From a virus: DNA of 32,941 bases. The translations under genes and the position numbers were made by a program. Numbering within the stretch: position 1 is the first letter of the stretch; each line of letters opens with the position of its first letter. The DNA lies in the IMG/VR virus record IMGVR_UViG_3300024259_000102, positions 1 to 32,941 of that record, one strand, 5' to 3'. Positions 14,708 to 32,941 of this stretch are shown one piece after another. The notes beneath the pieces are model-generated. The model did no database searches, was not told where the DNA came from, and worked only from the letters and a program-made list of their open reading frames with translations.

Positions 14708-17500
14708 CTATGCGGCCAGAGACAGGCTAGACGAAACTAGGTGAGCAGTAATCTTCACGAAGTTAACCGGAACGATAGGCGCCATTTCCACGTCTACGGT
14801 CATAACGTCGCCGGCCAGTTCGATAGTGAGGTTCTGCCAGTTGGTAAGGATTTCCTCGTCTACAAGCTGCCCGAGAACGCCTACTGCATCGGCCAGGGCT
14901 TGGTTCGCAGTACGAGCGTGCCCCTTCTTACCGATAATGGCCTCGAACCGACGACGGAACTCGTAAATCGCGTAGTTAGCGGCTTCGTTGACACTTGCCT
15001 CTGTATACGCCGTGTTATCGTCGATTTGATGGGTAGTGACGTTACGAACCCAGCGGTAGCCCACACCAGACACGTACTCGATAGCCAGCAGGCCCGACTG
15101 GATCAGGTCTTCGCCGTTATCCCTGATCGTATACTCCGAATCATTACCGGTCACGGATACGACGTTAAGGTACTTATGCGTTAGCGACGTACCCACAGAC
15201 GAGCCCGCCTGCATACCCGCGGCAATACACGACGCACCCAGATACGGCGGGAACGATTCCAGTTCTCCGTCTGTGTTGTACCGGCTAACGTTCTGAATCG
15301 CGTAACGGCAATGGCGCGTGTTCAGTGCGAGAGACTGAGACTTGAGGTCGGCCAGGGTTTCGGCTTCTGCGGCTCCTAGCACTGCATCTCGCTCAGACTG
15401 CCCCGCTCCTGCAGCGTACACGCAGTGCGCTCTTACAGCCGCATGTACCGCAGGATCACTCGTAAGCGATACGATGGTATTCACTCGAACATCGCGGATA
15501 AGGTCCAGCGCCGCCTGCCAGTGCGAGAACAGGGTCGTACCTTCAATCCCGCCAGCCAAGTACACAGCGACAGCGGTATTATCCGGAGCACCAGTGGCGC
15601 CAGTGGAGCGAGCCGCCGTAACGAGTTGGCTTTCGTTATTGAGAACCGCGATCATACGGTACAGAGTAGCCAGGAACTCACCAGCAGACGCCAAAACCGC
15701 CTCATCGTCGTAATGGTCCATATCCGTAATCAGGAACACGCTACCATCGCCAGACGATACACTGGCAGTCCAACCAGAAAGGGCCTCGATGTAGTCCACG
15801 ATCTTGCCGATGGTATCGTACGCGACGATAGGCAGGGTGAACACCTGCCCCGACGCGGTGGCTTTACGCGTACCTGCGACGTGAAGCACTGCGATACCAG
15901 ACAGCTCCGACCACGTACTAGTACCCGCCACCGGAGTAACCCCGTTCATCGTAAACTTCTCTACCTGTGCCGTACCAGTCGCGTCCAATCCGATCAGCAG
16001 AACGTCCTGCGTTACCGACGCGGCATCGCCTACCAGAGTCACCGCAGTAGAGCTTACGTCCACATCGTCAACATCTACGATAGCCTGTGCCGTGAGAGTC
16101 GCTACGGTAAGAGTACCCGTAGACGCAGACACGGTAATCGTACCAGCCGCGCTATTCGTGTCCACGCCCAGGAGCTTGCTCCAAGTCGCAGAACCAGCCA
16201 CGGGCACCACGCCTGCAAGAGTGATGGACTCGCTCTGCACTAGACCTGCAGAATCCAGACCGTACAGAGTCACTGCCATCGTATCGGCGCCGCTAGACAC
16301 GACAGTAAGCGTATCGCCGCTGTTAAGCAGGTGCCCCGACGCAGACACGGACCTAGCCGCAGCGACGTAACCCAGGAAGATACCGACCACGGTTTCCCAC
16401 GACGCAGTGGTCGGCACCGCCGTTACGCCATTCATCGTCACCTCTTCCATTTGAGGTGCGCCGCCTGGGGCGGTCCCGATCAGCAATACGTCCTGCGTCA
16501 CTGCGGCAGTGTCGCCCACCAGGCTAACGATCTCGTCAGCGGCTTCGATAGGAGACGACCATACGTACCCACAGCCGCCCTGAGACGTAAACGTCGCGTC
16601 AATCACGAACAGAGTAACGGGGCCAGCCTTGCTAAACGTCAGGTTACCGACCGGAGCCGAGGACGCGATCGCCCCGTGCACTACGTCAAAATTGGTGAGA
16701 CCCGCAGCAAGCACCATACCAGTAACCGCGATGATCTCTGTCGCAGGGAGACTCGTAGCGGTAGCGATCCCGTATACCGTTACGTTCATTGTGTCAGACG
16801 CACTAGACGAGACAACGCTAACCACAGTACCCGCGGCGTGTACCGCGTCCTGGTCTCCGTCTAGCCCGCTGATCGCACCCAGGGAGCCCGTATACATACT
16901 GAACTGGCCAGTGGCGTCCTTGGTAAAGTCGGCGCGAACTCCGTTGGTCGTATGCACGTCCATAGTCATGGCAGTAGCTTTACCCGACTCAGTGGAGCTG
17001 TACTGTGCCGTAAAGATCGGGTCACCACCGATATCGTCCCAGTCCTCCTCGCTATCTCCAAGAACAACGGTAAGCGCCTTGCCCTTAACCGTACCAGCGG
17101 AGATATCGACGCTAATGCGAGTCGTAAACAAACCGTAGTCAATCGAAGTCACAGCCATTTGGTCAACGAGTGCCTTTTGGAATGTGTAAGACGACTGCGT
17201 AGCTGGGTTAACCTTTACGAACTTGACTTCCTGCGCCCCACCTGGGATATCGGGATCCAGGCTGGGATCGAACAGAATCGCACCAGCTTCCAAAAGGTCG
17301 CCAGACTGGAACGTGTCGAAAATACGACCAGGGTTAGTCACGTCGAGAACTGCGGCCGGCTGGGCGCCTTCTGCCTCGCCAATACAGGCCACGATGCCAG
17401 ACGCACCGAGTCCGATCTTAGCTAGGCCCGATGTGTCAACCTGGCTATACGCGCCTGGAACTGCTGTAGTGCGGCCATTAAAGTAAATCGTGGAAGCCAT
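14708..17500 (-). CDS. Contractile tail sheath protein with inserted repeat array
   Basis: The sheath polymerises around the tube and contracts to drive injection. The N-terminus (TAVPGAYSQVDTSGL, then GIVACIGEAEG, NPGRIFDTFQSGDLLEAGAI) and the C-terminus (residues 840-930: YEFRRRFEAIIGKKGHARTA, LVDEEILTNWQNL, VEMAPIVPVNFVKITAH) match the conserved sheath core, which forms the handshake strands with neighbouring subunits. The core resumes at residues 555-700 (DHYDDEAVLAS, AVYLAGGIEG, RVNTIVSLTSDPAVHAAVRA). At 930 residues it is much longer than typical sheaths (about 400-660). The excess is an array of four beta-sandwich repeats at residues 224-556. GGAGG is placed 6 bases before the ATG. Confidence 0.92.
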   Translation of the reverse strand: MASTIYFNGRTTAVPGAYSQVDTSGLAKIGLGASGIVACIGEAEGAQPAAVLDVTNPGRIFDTFQSGDLLEAGAILFDPSLDPDIPGGAQEVKFVKVNPATQSSYTFQKALVDQMAVTSIDYGLFTTRISVDISAGTVKGKALTVVLGDSEEDWDDIGGDPIFTAQYSSTESGKATAMTMDVHTTNGVRADFTKDATGQFSMYTGSLGAISGLDGDQDAVHAAGTVVSVVSSSASDTMNVTVYGIATATSLPATEIIAVTGMVLAAGLTNFDVVHGAIASSAPVGNLTFSKAGPVTLFVIDATFTSQGGCGYVWSSPIEAADEIVSLVGDTAAVTQDVLLIGTAPGGAPQMEEVTMNGVTAVPTTASWETVVGIFLGYVAAARSVSASGHLLNSGDTLTVVSSGADTMAVTLYGLDSAGLVQSESITLAGVVPVAGSATWSKLLGVDTNSAAGTITVSASTGTLTVATLTAQAIVDVDDVDVSSTAVTLVGDAASVTQDVLLIGLDATGTAQVEKFTMNGVTPVAGTSTWSELSGIAVLHVAGTRKATASGQVFTLPIVAYDTIGKIVDYIEALSGWTASVSSGDGSVFLITDMDHYDDEAVLASAGEFLATLYRMIAVLNNESQLVTAARSTGATGAPDNTAVAVYLAGGIEGTTLFSHWQAALDLIRDVRVNTIVSLTSDPAVHAAVRAHCVYAAGAGQSERDAVLGAAEAETLADLKSQSLALNTRHCRYAIQNVSRYNTDGELESFPPYLGASCIAAGMQAGSSVGTSLTHKYLNVVSVTGNDSEYTIRDNGEDLIQSGLLAIEYVSGVGYRWVRNVTTHQIDDNTAYTEASVNEAANYAIYEFRRRFEAIIGKKGHARTANQALADAVGVLGQLVDEEILTNWQNLTIELAGDVMTVDVEMAPIVPVNFVKITAHLVSSSLSLAA
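15833..16831 (-). repeat. A-B-A'-B' domain array within the sheath gene
   Basis: Four modules of about 70-75 residues occur in tandem. A (residues 224-296) and A' (397-468) share VVSS, DTM and the strand VTVYG or VTLYG. B (324-396) and B' (484-556) share VTQDVLLIG, the strand with TMNGVT, then a Trp (TASW or TSTW). B and B' are also visibly related in DNA: near 15998 and 16478 both contain the plus-strand words ccgatcagca and acgtcctgcgt. The order implies duplication of a two-domain unit. The folds look like Ig-like modules common on phage surfaces. Confidence 0.8.
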
Positions 17501-24318: not shown

Positions 24319-25815
24319 TTACGCGTGACGACCAGTCGCGAGGCGGCCGACATTCACGAACATACCGCACTTTTTGGGCATCATGATCTGCAGAGCACCG
24401 TAAATCACCTGCATCCAACGCACGCTCGTATCGATCGTGGCGAGCGGAATGCGAGTAAATGGAGCCAACTGCTTCCACTTGAGAACCTCGGACGACTGCG
24501 AGAGCATATACGCCTTAGAGGTGTTCGGGTGGAACCGGTTAAGGTCCACGATGGTCTGCGCCGCTGCAGAACGCGCCACACGGAAGATCGTCCTACAAGT
24601 AGTAGCCGCGCCATCCTTGTCGGAACGGTAGACCTCGTAGTACGAAGTATTAGGGCCGTTATCCACGACAGCGATCGACGCCTGGTCGCCGGCGCTCACG
24701 GTCAACTGTGCGGAAGTCGCGGGGGCCGACTTACCGTAACGACTACCAGCACACACCTTGTACCAATACGCTCCCGCCCAGGTGGCGGTAAACGACTTAG
24801 AACCCGCACCCGCATACGCCGGAGAGGTCACACCCGAGATCGTGGGAGTGGTGGGGCGGACACCAGCTCGCCCAACACCCGCGGCCACTGGAGTCTTGCT
24901 GGCTACGATGAAGATGTTAGGATTCAGGTTGATATCACCGAATGGGGTCGCCACAGCGGAGATATTGATACCAGCCTTGCCGCCAGTAGGCGCCGGGAGA
25001 TCGTAGCGCTCCTTCGGATACATGATCTTGGACAGATCCTTAGTCGCCCCGGTATCGGTCCACAGATCGGTGGGCGCGCCGTAGTTCGGCTCGGCCACGA
25101 GCAGTTCGGCCATATCGGTAATGTAGTCCTCGCTAAGAGGGTTACCGCTACAGTCGATGACGTGCTCGTCGTCCTCATAGCCCGAAAGCATACCATCGTC
25201 CTGGACCGTGGCACCCCAGGCGCTAACCAGGAGTTTCTCGAGGCCGTCGAACTGGATGGATACCAGGTCCTCGTCACCGTAGAACATAGCACGCTCGATC
25301 TGCCGCAGCAGGAACATGGTACCGTTTACAGTCTCGCGGGCCATAGCGTCGCCATGCGCAGTACGCAGAACCGACATAACATGGGTGACTCTACGAGTCG
25401 TACCCATGAACTTGATCCGTGTGTACTGGCGGCTGTATGTCGAGTCGTCTTCCTCAGGGAGGTCTCCCTCGCTAATGAAGATAGCGTCGCCACTACCGTA
25501 CTCCTCGAGTCGGTTGTACTCCTCGACGGTGTTATACGCTGGATCCTTATACAGCGCCTTCCAGAACTTGACGTCCTTCGCCTTATACGTAGTGTTGAAC
25601 AGCGTTTGGTCCAAACTTTCCACACGAAGAGGGAAGCCCTCACCCGCGGCAGTACCGGGGCTATTGATGTCGCTTCCTGCCTCGAGGGCCTTGTTTAGGG
25701 CGTCAACGTCGGCCATGGAGGAGATCCCCCCGATAGCTTCGCCGCCTTCAGCCATGAGCCCACCCTGGTTGGCGAGCCCCTGATAATCCATCCATGACAC
25801 GATTTCGCCGGCCAT
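24319..25815 (-). CDS. Major capsid protein (SPO1/A511-like, with Ig-like insertion)
   Basis: This forms the icosahedral head lattice. Residues 60-200 carry the family pattern I recall from A511 and SPO1 capsid proteins: FPLRVESLD, then VKFWKALYKDPAYNTVEEYN, IKFMGTTRRVTHVMSVLRTA, IERAMFYGDEDL, and FDGLEKLL. The fold continues with ITDMAELLVAEPNYGAPTDL at about 230-250. Residues 318-425 are inserted and look like fibronectin type III (TPTISGVTSPAYAGAGSKSF, WYKVCAGSRYGKS, then YYEVYRSDKDGA). The C-terminus returns to the capsid core at about 430-498. Length is 498 residues. GGAGT is 6 bases before the ATG. Assignment is by pattern, not by search. Confidence 0.9.
   Translation of the reverse strand: MAGEIVSWMDYQGLANQGGLMAEGGEAIGGISSMADVDALNKALEAGSDINSPGTAAGEGFPLRVESLDQTLFNTTYKAKDVKFWKALYKDPAYNTVEEYNRLEEYGSGDAIFISEGDLPEEDDSTYSRQYTRIKFMGTTRRVTHVMSVLRTAHGDAMARETVNGTMFLLRQIERAMFYGDEDLVSIQFDGLEKLLVSAWGATVQDDGMLSGYEDDEHVIDCSGNPLSEDYITDMAELLVAEPNYGAPTDLWTDTGATKDLSKIMYPKERYDLPAPTGGKAGINISAVATPFGDINLNPNIFIVASKTPVAAGVGRAGVRPTTPTISGVTSPAYAGAGSKSFTATWAGAYWYKVCAGSRYGKSAPATSAQLTVSAGDQASIAVVDNGPNTSYYEVYRSDKDGAATTCRTIFRVARSAAAQTIVDLNRFHPNTSKAYMLSQSSEVLKWKQLAPFTRIPLATIDTSVRWMQVIYGALQIMMPKKCGMFVNVGRLATGRHA
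25609..25701 (-). repeat. Segment of capsid N-terminus shared with the protease
   Basis: Capsid residues 39-69 run from ALNKALEAG through PGTAAGEGFPLRVESLD. They match residues 168-198 of the prohead protease at 20 of 31 positions without gaps. The DNA of the two copies is much less alike, so the match is held at protein level. It lies just before the capsid core, where a maturation or scaffold-binding segment is expected. Confidence 0.75.
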
Positions 25816-25842
25816 GTTTTACTCCTGCTTGGTTTGTAGGGT

Positions 25843-25866
25843 GCGGCTATCTTAGCAATTCGCCGC
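25843..25866 (-). other. Weak hairpin between scaffold and capsid genes
   Basis: GCGGC and GCCGC can pair around a 14-base loop; within it GCTA-AGA-TAGC can form an alternative short hairpin. It lies in a 62-base gap before the capsid ribosome site. No T-run follows. This is much weaker than the two 11-bp hairpins in neighbouring gaps. Confidence 0.3.
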
Positions 25867-25877
25867 GAGTGGGGTTC

Positions 25878-26810
25878 CTATTTGCTACCTTCAGCCAGTT
25901 CGGCGACAACCTTCTCCAGGAGAGGCCGGCTAATCTGGTTAGTGCTCTCGAACTTAGCCGTAGCGTGTGCGATCACGTCACGAGCACGATCGTTGTCAGC
26001 CTTGGCCATGAGACCGCGAAGCCCCGTGAAGACCTGCGACTTACTCAACTTGTCTTCGGTGCCGTCGTTGCCGACCTTGGACTTACCGAGGTCGCGATTA
26101 CGAACGTCGCGAGGATCAGCGCCAACAGAACGACGAGGAGCGGGAGACTTCTCTACGATGTTGAGGCGGCTCTCGAGAGCGTCGATAACGCGCGACTGCC
26201 TCACGTAACCCTTGACGAGAGACTTAATCAGCCCGCCCTGTGCCTTGACGAGTTCCATATTAGCGGTGTGAGACCCGCGGACCTCACCCTCCAGGCCTTG
26301 CAGCCGGTCCTCGATGCCATTCGTCAGACTCTTGAGGAAAGGGCTTGCGTCCAACAGGTCGCCGTTATCGTCTTCCTCGTCTCGAATAGACTCTTCGAGA
26401 GACTTCTGCACCGGCTCGTCTTCGATGGTAACGTCGTCACCGGCCCAGATCTTGCCCAACTCCTTACGCTCGGCCTTCGTGAGGGTTCCAGCGTCCATGC
26501 GGGCCTTAAGATAGGTTTCGCGGTCGCCGCCGTCGCCGGCCAGGTCCAAGCCCTTTTCGACAGACTCGTAGTCCGCCAGGGCCTTCTCGAGTGCGTCAGG
26601 ATCTACGTCGCCGGTTTTGGACTTCTTGGCGTCCTCTTCCTCCTCGTCGTCGTCGTCGTCGTCGTCCTCGTCCTCGTCGTCCTTTCCTTCTTTAGCCTCG
26701 GGAAGGTTCTCGAACGCAGCCTTAGACAGAGGCTTAAGGTTATCTGCCTCACAACGAGATTTATACATCTCGTAGGTAAGACCATGGGGGCGCATCATCT
26801 TCTTTCGCAT
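25878..26810 (-). CDS. Acidic head scaffold protein
   Basis: The 310-residue protein lies between the protease and capsid genes, the classic scaffold position. A basic start (MRKKMMRP) leads to an acidic low-complexity tract at residues 44-60, almost all Asp and Glu, encoded by a run of gac and gag triplets. The rest is helical and charged: DALEKALADYESVEKGLDLA, LTKAERKELGKIWAGDD, IEDRLQGLEGEVRG, then a coiled-coil-like SRVIDALESRLNIVEKS and an end with RPLLEKVVAELAEGSK. No catalytic motif is seen. Such proteins guide capsid assembly and are usually removed by the prohead protease. GGAGT is 6 bases before the ATG. Confidence 0.78.
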   Translation of the reverse strand: MRKKMMRPHGLTYEMYKSRCEADNLKPLSKAAFENLPEAKEGKDDEDEDDDDDDDEEEEDAKKSKTGDVDPDALEKALADYESVEKGLDLAGDGGDRETYLKARMDAGTLTKAERKELGKIWAGDDVTIEDEPVQKSLEESIRDEEDDNGDLLDASPFLKSLTNGIEDRLQGLEGEVRGSHTANMELVKAQGGLIKSLVKGYVRQSRVIDALESRLNIVEKSPAPRRSVGADPRDVRNRDLGKSKVGNDGTEDKLSKSQVFTGLRGLMAKADNDRARDVIAHATAKFESTNQISRPLLEKVVAELAEGSK

Positions 26811-26814
26811 TGGG

Positions 26815-27687
26815 TTACTCCCTAGTGGCGGATTGTATGATTTCGTCGATCACGGACTCAGGCGCACCAGGCATCCTCTCAGACACAATACGCCTAGCCT
26901 CGGCTTTGGTCAAGCGCATCGAATGATCGCTAATCGATGCAGACAGGGTGTTCGCCCACTCTTCTAGGTAGCTAACCTCATCGACCAGCTCCAACTCAAA
27001 GTCGGCGGCTACCTGAGCCTTAATCACAGAAGAAGACGTGTCTTCCTCGTCTTCTTCTGAAACGGGCCCAGTTTGGATCGCAGGCTTGCCACCCTCTAGA
27101 CTTTCTGACCGTAGCGGAAAGCCTGCGCCAGGAGCGGCACCTGGGTTCGCGATAGATTGCCCAGCCGTAAGCGCTTTGGCCAGGGCTCTAAGTGACGTAC
27201 CCACGTTAACGGGGCAGTGCGTAATCGCCACATTACGAACCGTAGCTTTACGAATCGTTCGCGGATTCTTCACGTCACGAGCAACGACACTGCCCTCGAT
27301 ACTAAATCCCAACTTACGAGGCGCCTTCTCCAGAGCCTGTGCTAGGCTCCAAATCTGACGACCTTCTGGCGTATTGAGGAGATACCCCTCGGCCCACCAA
27401 CCCTGTCGAGTGGCGATGGAATCGTCAGGCAGACGCTCGCCCTTCTTGACCAACTTAGCAGAAGTCGGATAGCCCAGAACGTCGCCGGTTCGCTTACCGT
27501 GGTTGTCGTTAAACCAGCCCTTAGTCAGGAAGTCGGAGAAATCCAATCCGTTCTGTAGAATTCGCTCGTCGTCCTGATCTAGTTCGTCCGTGGATACGAT
27601 CCCGCCAATCCGCATAGGGTTCTCGTCGCCAGCCTTCTCGAAGGCGGCAACCTCGCACCAAACGCGAAACGGGGATGTGTCTTTCAT
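26815..27687 (-). CDS. Prohead (XkdF/HK97-like) protease
   Basis: Serine protease that cleaves scaffold and capsid proteins during head maturation. A GTG at 27693 is possible, but the ATG at 27687 has AGGG in a usable position, giving 290 residues. Numbered from that ATG, His63 lies in GWFNDNHGKRTGDVLG and Ser129 in LGFSIEGSVV, the usual His and Ser of the herpes-assemblin-like prohead protease fold. The pattern VRNVAITHCPVN matches the 'vsi...P.N' strand that follows. Residues 168-198 duplicate a capsid N-terminal segment. The last 90 residues are an acidic and helical tail, perhaps for scaffold binding. A strong promoter lies upstream. Confidence 0.82.
   Translation of the reverse strand: MKDTSPFRVWCEVAAFEKAGDENPMRIGGIVSTDELDQDDERILQNGLDFSDFLTKGWFNDNHGKRTGDVLGYPTSAKLVKKGERLPDDSIATRQGWWAEGYLLNTPEGRQIWSLAQALEKAPRKLGFSIEGSVVARDVKNPRTIRKATVRNVAITHCPVNVGTSLRALAKALTAGQSIANPGAAPGAGFPLRSESLEGGKPAIQTGPVSEEDEEDTSSSVIKAQVAADFELELVDEVSYLEEWANTLSASISDHSMRLTKAEARRIVSERMPGAPESVIDEIIQSATRE
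27094..27186 (-). repeat. Segment of protease shared with the capsid N-terminus
   Basis: Residues 168-198 of the protease run from ALAKALTAG through PGAAPGAGFPLRSESLE. They match capsid residues 39-69 at 20 of 31 positions. The copy directly follows the catalytic domain and precedes the acidic tail. Confidence 0.75.
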
Positions 27688-27707
27688 TAGCACCCTACGA
27701 ACTAAAC

Positions 27708-27771: not shown

Positions 27772-27799
27772 ATTATACAGACATACACAGCGAAGTCAA
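27772..27799 (-). promoter_or_regulatory. Sigma70-type promoter driving the head genes
   Basis: The minus strand reads TTGACT at 27799..27794, a 16-base spacer, then TATAAT at 27777..27772. The -10 is a perfect consensus and the -35 has five of six matches. Its -35 overlaps the stop codon of the zinc-ribbon gene. The transcript would start near 27765 and lead into protease, scaffold and capsid with a leader of about 78 bases. Use by host RNA polymerase is inferred; an early or middle use cannot be excluded. Confidence 0.8.
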
Positions 27800-28032
27800 C
27801 CCTTGCGAATTACACGAATCCCTACCCTACGCCTATGCACAATCGCTTTATTGACATCTCCGCCTGAAGACAGCACCACGTCGCCCTTGCACTTAGGGCA
27901 TGGACCGTGGACCGTTCCGTCGTCACTAACCAACACAATACCCAGACGGACGCGTAAGCCACCCTCTGTCGCGTCGCTGCCTATCTGCTTACCGCAGTGG
28001 CAGCACGAAACCCTAGTATACGTCCCACTCAT
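27796..28032 (-). CDS. Small zinc-ribbon protein, 78 aa
   Basis: The reading frame is open further upstream, but that part lies inside the preceding gene. The ATG at 28032 (MSGTYTRVSCCHCGKQIG) is preferred and overlaps the preceding stop by 20 bases, consistent with coupling. It has two knuckles, C9-x2-C12 and CPKC near residues 43-46, about 30 residues apart, an arrangement typical of zinc ribbons. Between them are hydrophobic strands (LRVRLGIVLVSDDGTVHG). The C-terminus is basic (HRRRVGIRVIRKG). No partner is recognised; a nucleic-acid or protein-binding role is plausible. The gene ends within the -35 of the head promoter. Confidence 0.6.
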   Translation of the reverse strand: MSGTYTRVSCCHCGKQIGSDATEGGLRVRLGIVLVSDDGTVHGPCPKCKGDVVLSSGGDVNKAIVHRRRVGIRVIRKG

Positions 28033-28336
28033 GAAACCCCGCACACGACTTAACGCGCCCAGACATAGGCACTTTATGAATTGACGACGCCTTAGCGATA
28101 CCAGACAACACCTTCTCCAGGCCTTCCGCACCATGATGCTTGAGAATCGTACTGCACACCATTTGGCGATCTACCCATACGTTCAACAGGCGCAGCCTCT
28201 CTCGATCGCCTTCTTCGTGTAGACGATCAAACACGGCGATACTCGGCAGTGGTTGATCGGGGTAGCCTTGGAACAATTGCGACAGGTCCATACCAGGAGG
28301 CATGAGTCGCCCGATTGCGCTGTTATTTACTGCCAT
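28013..28336 (-). CDS. Small protein of unknown function, 107 aa
   Basis: It starts 10 bases inside the end of the giant helicase gene, with GGGAG upstream of the ATG, so the two may be coupled. The sequence is mixed: a Met/Pro start (MPPGMDLSQLFQGYPDQ), then an amphipathic helix (DRLHEEGDRERLRLLNVWVD), then KHHGAEGLEKVLSGIAKAS and an end with one Cys. There is no membrane segment or known motif. It sits between the helicase and head genes. I do not recognise the family. Confidence 0.55.
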   Translation of the reverse strand: MAVNNSAIGRLMPPGMDLSQLFQGYPDQPLPSIAVFDRLHEEGDRERLRLLNVWVDRQMVCSTILKHHGAEGLEKVLSGIAKASSIHKVPMSGRVKSCAGFHEWDVY

Positions 28337-31300
28337 CGCTTCACCACTCCCAGCTTAGGGCCCATGGACTTAGCCACGTCCTTTCGGGACATATTCGACA
28401 CGTCCTGAGCCATGGTCTTATCGTAATCCAACTCGGTACGGATACTCGGGCCTTGCTGGATATTGTGCATTACATTTTCGTTAACGACCTGTCTCGCTCG
28501 ACTAGTGGTCCTCACCGCCGCCTCGGTGCGGATAGGGTGCTCTCGTTCATACCCGACAAACACATCGACGGGATCCTCGCCAGGCACCTTAACTCGCTTA
28601 GTCTGCGGTACGTCTGCACTCACGCCGATACGGCGCACATTAACCAGATACTTCTTCGTCTTGAGGATTGCCCGGTCCTCTGGAGAAAGCTCGTCGATAA
28701 TCGCATTCATCACGTCGGAGTCCTGTACAACTACACCTGACGAATGGGCGCGCATTTCGGAGGACACTTCAGGTCGTCTCTTCTCCACGTAATCAAGTAC
28801 TTCCTGCGCTCGGATCGCTAGATAGATCGACGCCGGATCGATAGACCCGACATCATCACCAGTCGTAAATCCAGCTTTAGCGATGATTCTCTTATCGACC
28901 TCACTCAGACCATCGATAGCCCGATTAATGGCAGACGACGGCTCGTCAGTCTCCACATCGTCATACGTGCCCTTAGTCGGGTCAGAGGCGGATAGACTAT
29001 CAAACGATACCACGTTATTCACCTGGCCAGGAACCCTAGTCCTCTTGAATTCCTCAAACACCGCCTCGGCTTGTGAATTCCCTAGGTTCGCCGCTACGGA
29101 CGCCTTGTTAGAAATCGCCTCCCATTGCGACGCCATGGACTCGTTTTTCTTTCTCTCTGCGCTGCTACTAAACTCAATCTCTCGCAAGGCGATAGCCTCA
29201 CTCTTGGCCTCCTGCACGATCATGTCTAGCGCCTCGCTGTAAGATACGTCTCCGCCTTCCTTGGCAAATCCACTAGACTCGTAATTCACCTTTAGCCCGT
29301 GTACCATACCGGTAGGGCGTCCTCGCAAACCAGGCTTAAACAGAGCCCGCTCTTTCTTCTTGATCGTACGGAAAGGTCCGTCAACCGCAGACACCCACCG
29401 GCCCTTAGTCTTCTTGTAACCCATGTCGCGGGCCTTATCGGGATCGGCGTCCAACTCTGGTACGAGTGCGATAGGCGCAGAACTACCCTTTTCACGAGTC
29501 AGCGCAGACTGAACCGCCGGGGGTAGCATCCGAGCGCAACGCGTGATCCTCTGCCATTCCAACGCGGAAGAACCCAGGGAATCGTACATCACCATCTCGC
29601 TCGCATTACCTAGATTCATACCCACGTTAGCCGCGTCGCTACATACAATCATTTCGCAGTTGTTAAACACGGTCGTCTGTTTCTGCGACAACGGTGGGTC
29701 TGTGACAGCGCCCTTACGGGCTATGTCGCCGTATTGCTGCTTTAGCTCTGCGATTCTCTTCTTAGCTGCTTTAGCGAGCTTAGGGTCTTCCATCTTGGTA
29801 GGATCGCCCGTCAAAACGATCTCACGCAGAATAGACGCACTCTTAGAGTTACCGTAAAAGTAGCGCTGGACTCCATGCTCGTCTACGAAATACGACTCTG
29901 GCGGATTAATACCGAACTGGCGTTTAACGATTCTTCTCTGCTCTGGACCGAACTGAGACATCTTGATCCCGTAATCCGGCCCATCGCCGGGATACGCCTT
30001 CCACTTGCGACCCTCGTTACAGCGATTAACGAAAAGAGACTCGTCACTATCGCGCCCTAGTGCATCCTTGGTCTTTTGGAATATCATCGTATTAAGCATA
30101 CGATCGCCCGTGTACGTACCGCCGATATACGTTACGAAATACTTGTCGTTAGGGGCCTTGCCCCCATCCTCAGGATCGTAATGCGGGCTACCCTCAATAG
30201 CCTCGTTTACGTCCTTAAACCCCATAGTCCTAAGAGTCGCCTCCATAGTCCGGCAACCGTCAAGAATGCTGTTAGCGAACATCACCATTTGGCGAGAACC
30301 GTCTGGGCCTGGGCCCGTATCCTCGTGGAAGTTCAAGATATGGTTGCGAAGCTCCTCAGCCTTGGCGTTACCAAGCACCATAGACATATCGGCCTTTCTA
30401 CGCTCCTCTCGCATACCTGGGTCCATGATGCTACGTGCCTTAGTCGTAATCGCCTTCTTCTTGACCCAATGAACGTCGCCAGTATCCATACGCACCACTG
30501 CGACTTTGCCTCTAGAGTCTTCTCCCAACGTCAAATCGTACCTAAATACCAGGTTATCCTGCCACTCTGCTTTACCCGCGGCGTTCAACTTATTACCCTC
30601 GTCGTCATACGTGGGAGCCTTGATACCGGCGAACCCCTTTACGTTCACGACATCGCCATCCTTGGCCTTCTCGAAACCACCCCCCTCTTTAGGCTTCCCA
30701 GTATTCTCGTCCCAGTCCTCCGGACGATACAACAGGTGGAGACTACCGCGCTTATCGCTAACCCATCGATCGCCTTCCGAAACACGAACACCCTTGATCC
30801 CCCACTCGGCCAGATTCGCGTCGATATACTTATGATGGTCTGTGCGATCGGGCCTAATGCCTAACAGCATAGTACCCTCGTCCAAAGACACTCCGTGCTG
30901 CGCGCATGTCCACTCCAGAGCCTTATCCCGAGTTAGCGGCATATCGATCGACTTGTCGGGATCGTCTGGGTTCGGGATGCTCTGCACGGAACCAACATTC
31001 TCGCTAAACGACCGTTGGAACGCTACCGCGTCGTTCGCCCTAGGATGAGGAGCCGCAGCAGTGTCGAACCCACGACACACGATACCGGCTGGACCTGCAT
31101 CCGGGTTATCAATCTTACGACCGTTCTTATCGTCCCAGCCGTCGGCCTTCATCGCCTTGACTTGCGCCCTAGTTACCTTAGTACCGGCAAGCTGCGAGTA
31201 ATCCGACACGCCCAGAATGTCGCCGAAGTGCATACCATACAGCATCGCCGCATGGGTGCCGATCTGTTCTACAGGCGGCCACGTACCACGCATACGACCA

Positions 31301-32941
31301 CGCCGCTTTGACATAAGCCACGACGGCTTGAACGCCTCGAACGGACGACGAGACGTCTGCATCACTCCGTCCTTATCAGGCTTCTCGACTTCCTCCATGA
31401 CGAACTGTTCACTAGACGCAGGCTTGTACGCAGGGCAGTTAGACACTGCCTTAGCCGCCAGCACACTTCGCCGCCCCTGCTGGGTTAGACCGGCGGTCTC
31501 ATCGGCACTCAGAGCGCCCTGGTTGTCAGCTAGGCGCGCGGCGTCGGCGTCTCCTAGGGCTGCCATATGCAATGCGTATAGCTGCGCCTGAATGCCTGTC
31601 ATATGGGCGTGTCGCGACTCCTCAATACGAACAGCAGGAAGTGTCTTACCTCGCACGTCCTTAGTCTGGCATACGTGCGTATACTGTGCGAGAATTCCTG
31701 CAAACTCGCTCATCTTAGACGCCTTGATCTGAATCTTAGGACCCTTGCGGCCCACCGATCCAGTCGCCCCCACCACGACACTCTCTTCTAGGTACTCATC
31801 GGCGAACTGGTTAGCAGTCATGCCTGCGAATTGTGCGCCTTGCGACAACAGCTTGATATACTCCAGGAAATCGGCTGGAGTAGTCGTCATAGGCGTACCC
31901 GTGAGGAGCATCATCATTTTCATGTCCCCATTCCACTCCGCCATCGCCTTATTTCGCTTAGCCTTTTCGTTAGAGATCCCCTGGTGAGCTTCGTCAACGA
32001 TGATACCGTCGAAACCCGCCTCCCTCAGCTTCTTCTGGTTAGCTGTCCAGTACTCCGGGCCGACGACTACCAAGTCGTTAGTATCCAAACCATTTTTTAC
32101 CATATCCACGTAACGATCTACGGGGATATGATTCTTACCGGCCCCTACGACAGTAGCGCCCTCGTCAAATGTACCAGCCGCCTCCCGCCACTGTTCGATC
32201 GTATTCAAAGGAGCAACGACGCACACCTTCTTAGGGGCGTTAGGATGTGGCTTACTCGGATCCTCGGGATCTCGCAGAGCCATCATAGTCTTAGCTGCGA
32301 CGAGTGCGGATACGGTTTTACCAGTCCCCATATAATGCGCCGCGAGGGCCCTACCATCGTTGTCTACTACCTTCTGCACCAACTCGGCCTGATGCTGTGC
32401 GAGAGTAAACGGCACGCCATTAGGCAACACTGGGTTAATGCCAGCACCCATGGCTGCGAGGTTAGACGGCGTAATTTCGTCAATATCCAGAACATGCGCC
32501 GAATCCATCGTCTTCTGCGCCGATTCTCTCATTGCGCTTACTTGGTCAGACAGTCGCCGCTCGGCCCCTGTAGTCATGGACACGTAACCGAACGCGTCTC
32601 GCACGTTAGAGAACCCGCTCATATTGACGCGAATATAGTCTAGCTTCTTGTGCTTTTTGCCGTCCTCGTCTTTAACAGACGTGTACACAGGCGTAACGCC
32701 CCTAAGTCCTACAATTTGCTCGACTGGAATCGCACCGCTACTAGGTAGCACGAGACGCGGCTCTGACTCCAACACGGCGCCCGTACGAGGGTCTAGGCGA
32801 TCGTGCATGTACAGAAGCATACTGTTCTTGAGAGGCTTAGGGGCGCGCGACTCCTCGGTGGGCCGGATGGACGCTACCGCTGCCGCCTTGGTCGATCGGA
32901 CGAATCGCTTACCGCCAGCACCGCCACCAATCTCGCCTGCG
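28327..32941 (-). CDS. Giant SNF2-like SF2 helicase, 5' partial
   Basis: The frame is open to the window edge: before the ATG at 32820 there are 40 more codons without a stop and no ribosome site, so the start is outside. At least 1,537 residues are visible. Counted from the ATG at 32820: motif I MGTGKT at 164-169, motif Ia VCVVAPLNTIEQW at 199-211, DEAH at 276-279, motif III LLTGTP at 305-310, motif IV-like MVMFAN near 845, motif V MIVCSDAANVGMNLG at 1057-1071, and motif VI EWQRITRCAR at 1088-1097. About 530 residues separate motifs III and IV, far more than in standard SNF2 enzymes. The last 400 residues are charged and helical. It overlaps the next gene by 10 bases. Confidence 0.88.
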   Translation of the reverse strand, partial: AGEIGGGAGGKRFVRSTKAAAVASIRPTEESRAPKPLKNSMLLYMHDRLDPRTGAVLESEPRLVLPSSGAIPVEQIVGLRGVTPVYTSVKDEDGKKHKKLDYIRVNMSGFSNVRDAFGYVSMTTGAERRLSDQVSAMRESAQKTMDSAHVLDIDEITPSNLAAMGAGINPVLPNGVPFTLAQHQAELVQKVVDNDGRALAAHYMGTGKTVSALVAAKTMMALRDPEDPSKPHPNAPKKVCVVAPLNTIEQWREAAGTFDEGATVVGAGKNHIPVDRYVDMVKNGLDTNDLVVVGPEYWTANQKKLREAGFDGIIVDEAHQGISNEKAKRNKAMAEWNGDMKMMMLLTGTPMTTTPADFLEYIKLLSQGAQFAGMTANQFADEYLEESVVVGATGSVGRKGPKIQIKASKMSEFAGILAQYTHVCQTKDVRGKTLPAVRIEESRHAHMTGIQAQLYALHMAALGDADAARLADNQGALSADETAGLTQQGRRSVLAAKAVSNCPAYKPASSEQFVMEEVEKPDKDGVMQTSRRPFEAFKPSWLMSKRRGRMRGTWPPVEQIGTHAAMLYGMHFGDILGVSDYSQLAGTKVTRAQVKAMKADGWDDKNGRKIDNPDAGPAGIVCRGFDTAAAPHPRANDAVAFQRSFSENVGSVQSIPNPDDPDKSIDMPLTRDKALEWTCAQHGVSLDEGTMLLGIRPDRTDHHKYIDANLAEWGIKGVRVSEGDRWVSDKRGSLHLLYRPEDWDENTGKPKEGGGFEKAKDGDVVNVKGFAGIKAPTYDDEGNKLNAAGKAEWQDNLVFRYDLTLGEDSRGKVAVVRMDTGDVHWVKKKAITTKARSIMDPGMREERRKADMSMVLGNAKAEELRNHILNFHEDTGPGPDGSRQMVMFANSILDGCRTMEATLRTMGFKDVNEAIEGSPHYDPEDGGKAPNDKYFVTYIGGTYTGDRMLNTMIFQKTKDALGRDSDESLFVNRCNEGRKWKAYPGDGPDYGIKMSQFGPEQRRIVKRQFGINPPESYFVDEHGVQRYFYGNSKSASILREIVLTGDPTKMEDPKLAKAAKKRIAELKQQYGDIARKGAVTDPPLSQKQTTVFNNCEMIVCSDAANVGMNLGNASEMVMYDSLGSSALEWQRITRCARMLPPAVQSALTREKGSSAPIALVPELDADPDKARDMGYKKTKGRWVSAVDGPFRTIKKKERALFKPGLRGRPTGMVHGLKVNYESSGFAKEGGDVSYSEALDMIVQEAKSEAIALREIEFSSSAERKKNESMASQWEAISNKASVAANLGNSQAEAVFEEFKRTRVPGQVNNVVSFDSLSASDPTKGTYDDVETDEPSSAINRAIDGLSEVDKRIIAKAGFTTGDDVGSIDPASIYLAIRAQEVLDYVEKRRPEVSSEMRAHSSGVVVQDSDVMNAIIDELSPEDRAILKTKKYLVNVRRIGVSADVPQTKRVKVPGEDPVDVFVGYEREHPIRTEAAVRTTSRARQVVNENVMHNIQQGPSIRTELDYDKTMAQDVSNMSRKDVAKSMGPKLGVVKRWQ

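Follow-up and report, generated by a model that had tools for sequence, protein, structure and literature searches.

Outside HK97 and T4, little is known of how a maturation protease is packaged into the prohead and activated only once inside. Herpesvirus assemblin carries a release site between the protease and a capsid-binding tail and cuts that site itself, and the mature major capsid protein (MCP) of HK97, gp5, starts at S104. In SPN3US, the protease gp245 was found by mass spectrometry to cut off its own 64-residue C-terminal propeptide at a motif of the MCP type (PMC10052503). Here we describe a viral sequence from IMG/VR (record IMGVR_UViG_3300024259_000102, positions 1 to 32,941; this whole stretch of 32,941 nucleotides is called the window below) in which the prohead protease and the MCP share a segment of 31 residues. 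We propose that the segment is a cleavage site for the protease followed by the N-terminal arm (N-arm) of the mature capsid protein, that the protease would cut at such sites in the MCP, the scaffold and itself, and that its own copy of the arm would dock it until autocleavage; we put the probability of this reading at roughly 0.6. The two genes, the two copies of the segment and the predicted cuts (marked ↓ throughout) lie as follows.

24319..25815, minus strand: MCP, 498 amino acids; PF17236 SU10_MCP at 34.3 bits, cut-off 24.1
26815..27693, minus strand: prohead (head maturation) protease, 292 amino acids from the GTG (27693), 290 from the ATG (27687)
25609-25701, minus strand: MCP copy of the segment, ALNKALEAGSDINSPGTAAGEGFPLRVESLD, MCP residues 39-69; putative start of the mature N-arm
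27094-27186, minus strand: protease copy of the segment, ALAKALTAGQSIANPGAAPGAGFPLRSESLE, residues 168-198 from the ATG, 170-200 from the GTG
25690..25692, minus strand: MCP Lys42 codon, predicted P1 of the maturation cut K42↓A43; homologous to phi812 K24↓S25
27175..27177, minus strand: protease Lys173 codon, predicted P1 of the autocleavage K173↓A174; invariant column, with model confidence collapsing from 174

A reading of the DNA made from the sequence only had reported a gap-free match of 31 residues with 20 identities at exactly this place, and we recovered it unchanged: the best ungapped BLOSUM62 score is 93, compared with a mean of 33 and a maximum of 61 in 1000 shuffles (Gumbel p ~5e-9). 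The DNA does differ between the copies, as had also been claimed, with 54 of 93 positions identical and a common codon for just 6 of the 20 matching residues. When the whole 32,941-base record was searched with the MCP segment as query, only the MCP and protease places were returned and no third copy was found.

The shared segment is a real, family-wide feature that extends beyond one genome. We gathered relatives using the window protease, a protease alignment and annotated phages, and compared 80 non-redundant genomes that have both a protease and an MCP. The sequence-only reading had suggested a profile search as a check on its motif; a profile built from the MCP copies alone found the protease copy in 63 of the 80 proteases at E <1e-3 and in 69 at E <0.1, including proteases of SPO1-like, phi812-like and Listeria phages. 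Direct inspection shows the segment in the protease and the MCP of CampHawk (SPO1-like), Lysinibacillus phage LysYB1, Staphylococcus phage 812, Listeria phage P200 and Enterococcus phage KEN16, and in several relatives the similarity extends downstream of the 31 residues, as in CampHawk (KESLDKDLKNLSY versus VESLERSLHNLSF). No third protein in the fetched loci matched the MCP-copy profile, the remaining matches there being proteases or MCPs whose partner was unscored; relatives of these proteins were absent from plasmid records. The GFPLR core proposed earlier proved local to the window's clade, and the core that holds across the family is K[AS]LxxG...G..LR.ESL. Thermus phage Cumys, whose protease is too divergent for the family profile, has a version of its own, TAGDPHALDxKxGLxGVPAIRxESLE, in which protease and MCP agree at 22 of 26 positions. 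Many proteases from viral contigs (L005, L008, L013, L031 and L026) also have Lys-rich tracts such as EKKRKKKRFKK behind the N-arm copy.

The first part of the segment is probably a cleavage site of the form [LIV]-x-K↓[AS]-[LFM]. Its Lys is identical in 80 of 80 non-redundant MCPs and is the sole invariant column among 61 aligned MCPs, and among 58 proteases the counterpart of this Lys belongs to a group of 16 invariant columns that also includes H65 and S131. The phi812 MCP has been deposited both at full length (5lii, 463 amino acids) and from S25 onward (9row/9rox/9roz, 439 amino acids); K24 of phi812 aligns with the segment Lys, and the deposited chain start implies a K24↓S25 cut. HK97 gp5 carries FNK103-S104L, which fits the same K↓[AS] rule. 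Together, these alignments give good support to predicted cuts at MCP K42↓A43 and protease K173↓A174. One or two substrate-type sites stand directly behind the catalytic domain in 59 proteases, the arrangement that marks proteases with an autocleaved propeptide (gp245, gp21, assemblin). In 15 of them, the window's included, the shared segment begins with the same site that lies at the catalytic domain's end, and in the other 44 these are two separate sites, 8-30 residues apart. A peptide of phage K, (K)SFQTGYGITPDTQIDAGALR(R), has been detected in particles (PMC5258805); being a tryptic product, it places the N-arm in the virion and shows no more than that.

Sites of the same kind recur in the head scaffolding protein, where four candidates in the window have the form [ILVF]xK[AS]L.

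25878..26810, minus strand: head scaffolding protein, 310 amino acids; PHROG 15087, E 2e-11
26577..26591, minus strand: candidate cut site LEK↓AL (K76)
26397..26411, minus strand: candidate cut site VQK↓SL (K136)
26325..26339, minus strand: candidate cut site FLK↓SL (K160)
26217..26231, minus strand: candidate cut site LIK↓SL (K196)

Across 25 scaffolds less than 35% identical to one another, the pattern [ILVMF]xK[AS][LFMWY] was seen 94 times against 3.5 expected (maximum of 9 in 500 shuffles), and an unbiased count of tripeptide enrichment in the same 25 ranked KSF, KSL and KSM at the top with KSI and KAL close behind. In a set of 70 scaffolds, for which z-scores are inflated because related sequences are included, a pattern with Arg for Lys was not enriched and a Glu version only slightly so. 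In the body of the MCP, K[AS][LFMWY] occurs slightly less often than expected. Positions P3' to P6' of the scaffold sites are unconserved and there is no trace of the N-arm extension; since these sites lack the extension of about 25 residues, it is not needed for cutting. The sequence-only reading had offered a cleavage element common to protease and capsid, and this fits the half of the segment with the Lys site, given phi812 K24↓S25 and the scaffold enrichment. The cleavage half is a well-supported and unsurprising extension of known phage biology.

The further 25 or so residues, xAG...G..LR.ESL, would be the N-arm of the mature MCP, and this extension was found in the MCP and the protease only. 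An AlphaFold2 (AF2) model divides the window protease into a catalytic domain (27-172), a tail (174-212) and C-terminal helices (221-291); the segment tail begins at the end of the folded domain, placing the protease copy behind the catalytic domain as had been stated. Confidence, given as the predicted local distance difference test (pLDDT), is >90 to about residue 170 and <50 for most of 174-212, with helices from 221, so the tail is predicted to be disordered; the MCP segment is also of low confidence in its predicted model. The structure models were built from viral-contig relatives only; sequences of annotated phages were excluded. When proteases whose catalytic domains are 30-60% identical are compared, identity is 43% in the segment, 43% in the catalytic domain and only 20% over the 25 residues that follow the segment. 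A flexible stretch conserved as tightly as the enzyme itself would be typical of a binding motif. The C-terminal helical region of the protease had no match outside proteases when compared with scaffold and MCP.

The protease segment also tracks the capsid of its own phage. Its identity to the MCP segment of the same phage is 0.587, compared with 0.429 for mismatched phages and a maximum of 0.465 in 5000 permutations, and segment identities still correlate after divergence of the catalytic domain and of the MCP core is removed (partial Mantel r 0.36, p 0.0005). Segment pairs taken across very close relatives reach 0.58, almost the value of own pairs, and acquisition of the segment several times in separate lineages could contribute to the co-variation of own pairs. 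Where the residues are identical, the codons coincide in 41.4% of cases, and codon usage by itself predicts 41.3%; because codon coincidence sits at this expectation, recent copying cannot explain the co-variation, and gene conversion between the copies was rejected on the same figures. The earlier suggestion that the protease mimics the capsid N-terminus fits the N-arm half, which occurs in MCP and protease only, is absent at scaffold sites and co-varies with the capsid.

If the segment joins a cleavage site to a capsid arm, maturation may run as follows. The protease would cut after the Lys of [LIV]-x-K↓[AS]-[LFM]. In the MCP a single cut, K42↓A43, would take off residues 1-42, and the scaffold would be cut at several sites of the same type. 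It would also cut itself right behind the catalytic domain, at K173↓A174, and the approximately 25 residues behind that cut would imitate the capsid N-arm. Through its N-arm contact, with neighbouring MCP or scaffold, the intact protease would be tethered in the prohead, and autocleavage at K173 would release the catalytic domain from the tether. A more specific version, which we hold tentatively and at somewhat short of even odds, is that the protease enters the prohead by mimicry: its lineage-matched arm copy would occupy an N-arm site in the lattice, and the self-cut would leave an N-arm-like fragment whose start resembles that of mature MCP. The prohead of phage D3 has a flexible N-arm, which may serve to expose the cut site; in the mature head this arm is ordered, together with the E-loop (PMC12749128). 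Arms that are flexible at the prohead stage are free to be imitated then.

Several points weigh against this proposal. The S25 start of the phi812 MCP is the chain chosen by the depositors and not an N-terminal sequence, K42↓A43 and K173↓A174 are predicted cuts in the window phage, and low pLDDT in an isolated chain is no proof of disorder. The argument that the tail docks to the shell is one of conservation and co-variation. The scaffolds of phi812 and Brochothrix phage A9 (L034, L108) lack a site of the strict form, of which most other scaffolds carry several; the MCP and protease of both phages keep the LxK[AS]L site that is missing from their scaffolds. Finally, five proteases of one clade (L090, L098, L100, L102 and L115) have no N-arm extension, though their MCPs carry the N-arm; they retain K[AS]F behind the catalytic domain, and docking by an N-arm copy is therefore not universal. 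In about a dozen further proteases the segment is weak, shortened or degenerate. The sequence-only reading had named absence of the segment from other proteases as the result that would count against it, and such absence or weakness is confined to these groups, with the segment present in 63 of 80.

The main alternative is that the segment serves over its full length as an extended recognition element: the protease would read LxK↓AL and, through an exosite, the downstream AG...LRxESL as well, both substrates would keep the segment for that reason, and docking to the shell would play no part. Both copies do sit directly behind a predicted cut and co-vary, and the segment is predicted to be flexible in the protease and is of low confidence in the MCP, which speaks for such an element. 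However, the scaffold, the protein densest in sites, never has the extension, nor does the first site in the 44 two-site proteases; the similarity runs about 25-35 residues beyond the cut, far past a substrate groove; and in HK97 the MCP has FNK103↓S104L while the protease lacks the extension. We regard this alternative as unlikely. It is likewise doubtful that the tail mimics the N-arm with the scaffold as its specific partner, bound in the prohead by both the MCP arm and the protease tail, even though the scaffold end touches the N-arm helix in the procapsids of 80alpha, P22 and phi29 (PMC12749128). This is a narrower form of the docking proposal, which allows either partner.

Protease–MCP fusions are known in other tailed phages. 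The segment could be a fossil, a first piece of MCP left by a past fusion or recombination and now functionless, and a case of a single protease–MCP gene is mentioned in the literature (PMC9855967); the segment is nevertheless conserved like the catalytic domain, unlike the 25 residues that follow it, and it varies with the MCP of its own phage without conversion at the DNA level, which makes a fossil very improbable. Chance or low-complexity similarity, for which the Ala- and Gly-rich composition might speak, is rejected as a negligible prospect by the shuffles (p ~5e-9) and by the MCP-only profile, which recovers the segment in 63 of the 80 proteases.

The N-arm half of the segment, by which the protease of SPO1-like phages carries a capsid-arm copy matched to its lineage, seems to be a new variant; no description of the shared segment was found in the literature searched, where coverage of the key papers for these phages was thin. 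A short, conserved, lineage-matched arm copy makes docking a concrete and directly testable hypothesis, for which the five-protease clade is a natural test group of recruitment without an N-arm copy. If docking is true, the tail would also offer a simple tag by which cargo could be loaded into proheads of this kind. The rule [LIV]xK↓[AS][LFM] allows cuts in MCP, scaffold and protease to be predicted in the approximately 600 phage records that have relatives.

The window protease has two features of an assemblin-fold (Peptidase_S78 / phrog_1028) protease, the assemblin-like catalytic fold and the invariant His and Ser. It matches PHROG 1028 (E 3e-39), and its catalytic domain aligns by VIA-align with T4 gp21 (Z 10.0, root-mean-square deviation (rmsd) 2.9, 122 residues) and with the assemblin of varicella-zoster virus (VZV; Z 9.8, rmsd 3.3, 118 residues). 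H65 and S131, invariant in the 58 proteases, are probably catalytic by homology. PF04586 scores 16.9 bits on this protein, below the cut-off of 21, and 22 of the 58 relatives match it at E 0.01. The MCP is a member of SU10_MCP / phrog_752 by profile and by homology to solved structures: it matches PHROG 752 (E 1e-82), Gp6.1 (9vel, E 1e-75) and the phi812 MCP (5lii and 9row, E ~1e-20; the 5lii structure alone, E 7e-21).

On the minus strand, the head region of the window reads helicase, two small open reading frames (ORFs), prohead protease, scaffold, MCP. The SNF2-type helicase, of 1497 amino acids, adjoins the head genes on the upstream side (28327-32820, minus strand), and between it and the protease an ORF of 112 amino acids (27796-28134, minus strand) has two Cys pairs (CCHCG, CPKC), possibly a zinc ribbon. 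A tail sheath-like protein of 930 amino acids (14708-17500, minus strand) has its best sheath profile match over residues 489-923, leaving a long N-terminal region outside the match. The head region of Cumys is arranged much alike, with helicase, small ORF, protease, scaffold and MCP in that order.

Set beside the described systems, the window resembles HK97 (Peptidase_S78) in its predicted cut grammar, in a K-[AS] pair placed right behind the protease catalytic domain (K-S in HK97, AMK159-SV) and in its protease-then-MCP order. The scaffold is fused to the MCP in HK97 and is a separate gene here, and a search for a copy of the capsid N-arm in the HK97 protease found none (best local score 33 against a shuffle mean of 31.6). 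SPN3US gp245 and T4 gp21 share the assemblin-like fold; gp245 cuts at AxE↓ and the window phage would cut at LxK↓A, and a likeness of the gp245 propeptide to the MCP N-arm goes unreported in the accessible part of its description (PMC10052503). Herpesvirus assemblin is alike in catalytic fold (VZV, Z 9.8) and differs in its tail, which in herpesviruses is the scaffold that binds MCP and here is an N-arm copy with a small helical region, the scaffold gene being separate. The window phage is distant from Herelleviridae (SPO1/phi812/A511-type), its MCP being 22-36% identical to those of named members, and upstream of the protease it has a helicase and two small ORFs, much as in Cumys, where Herelleviridae have the portal gene. 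Annotated relatives in that family nevertheless have the same protease-scaffold-MCP order and the same shared segment.

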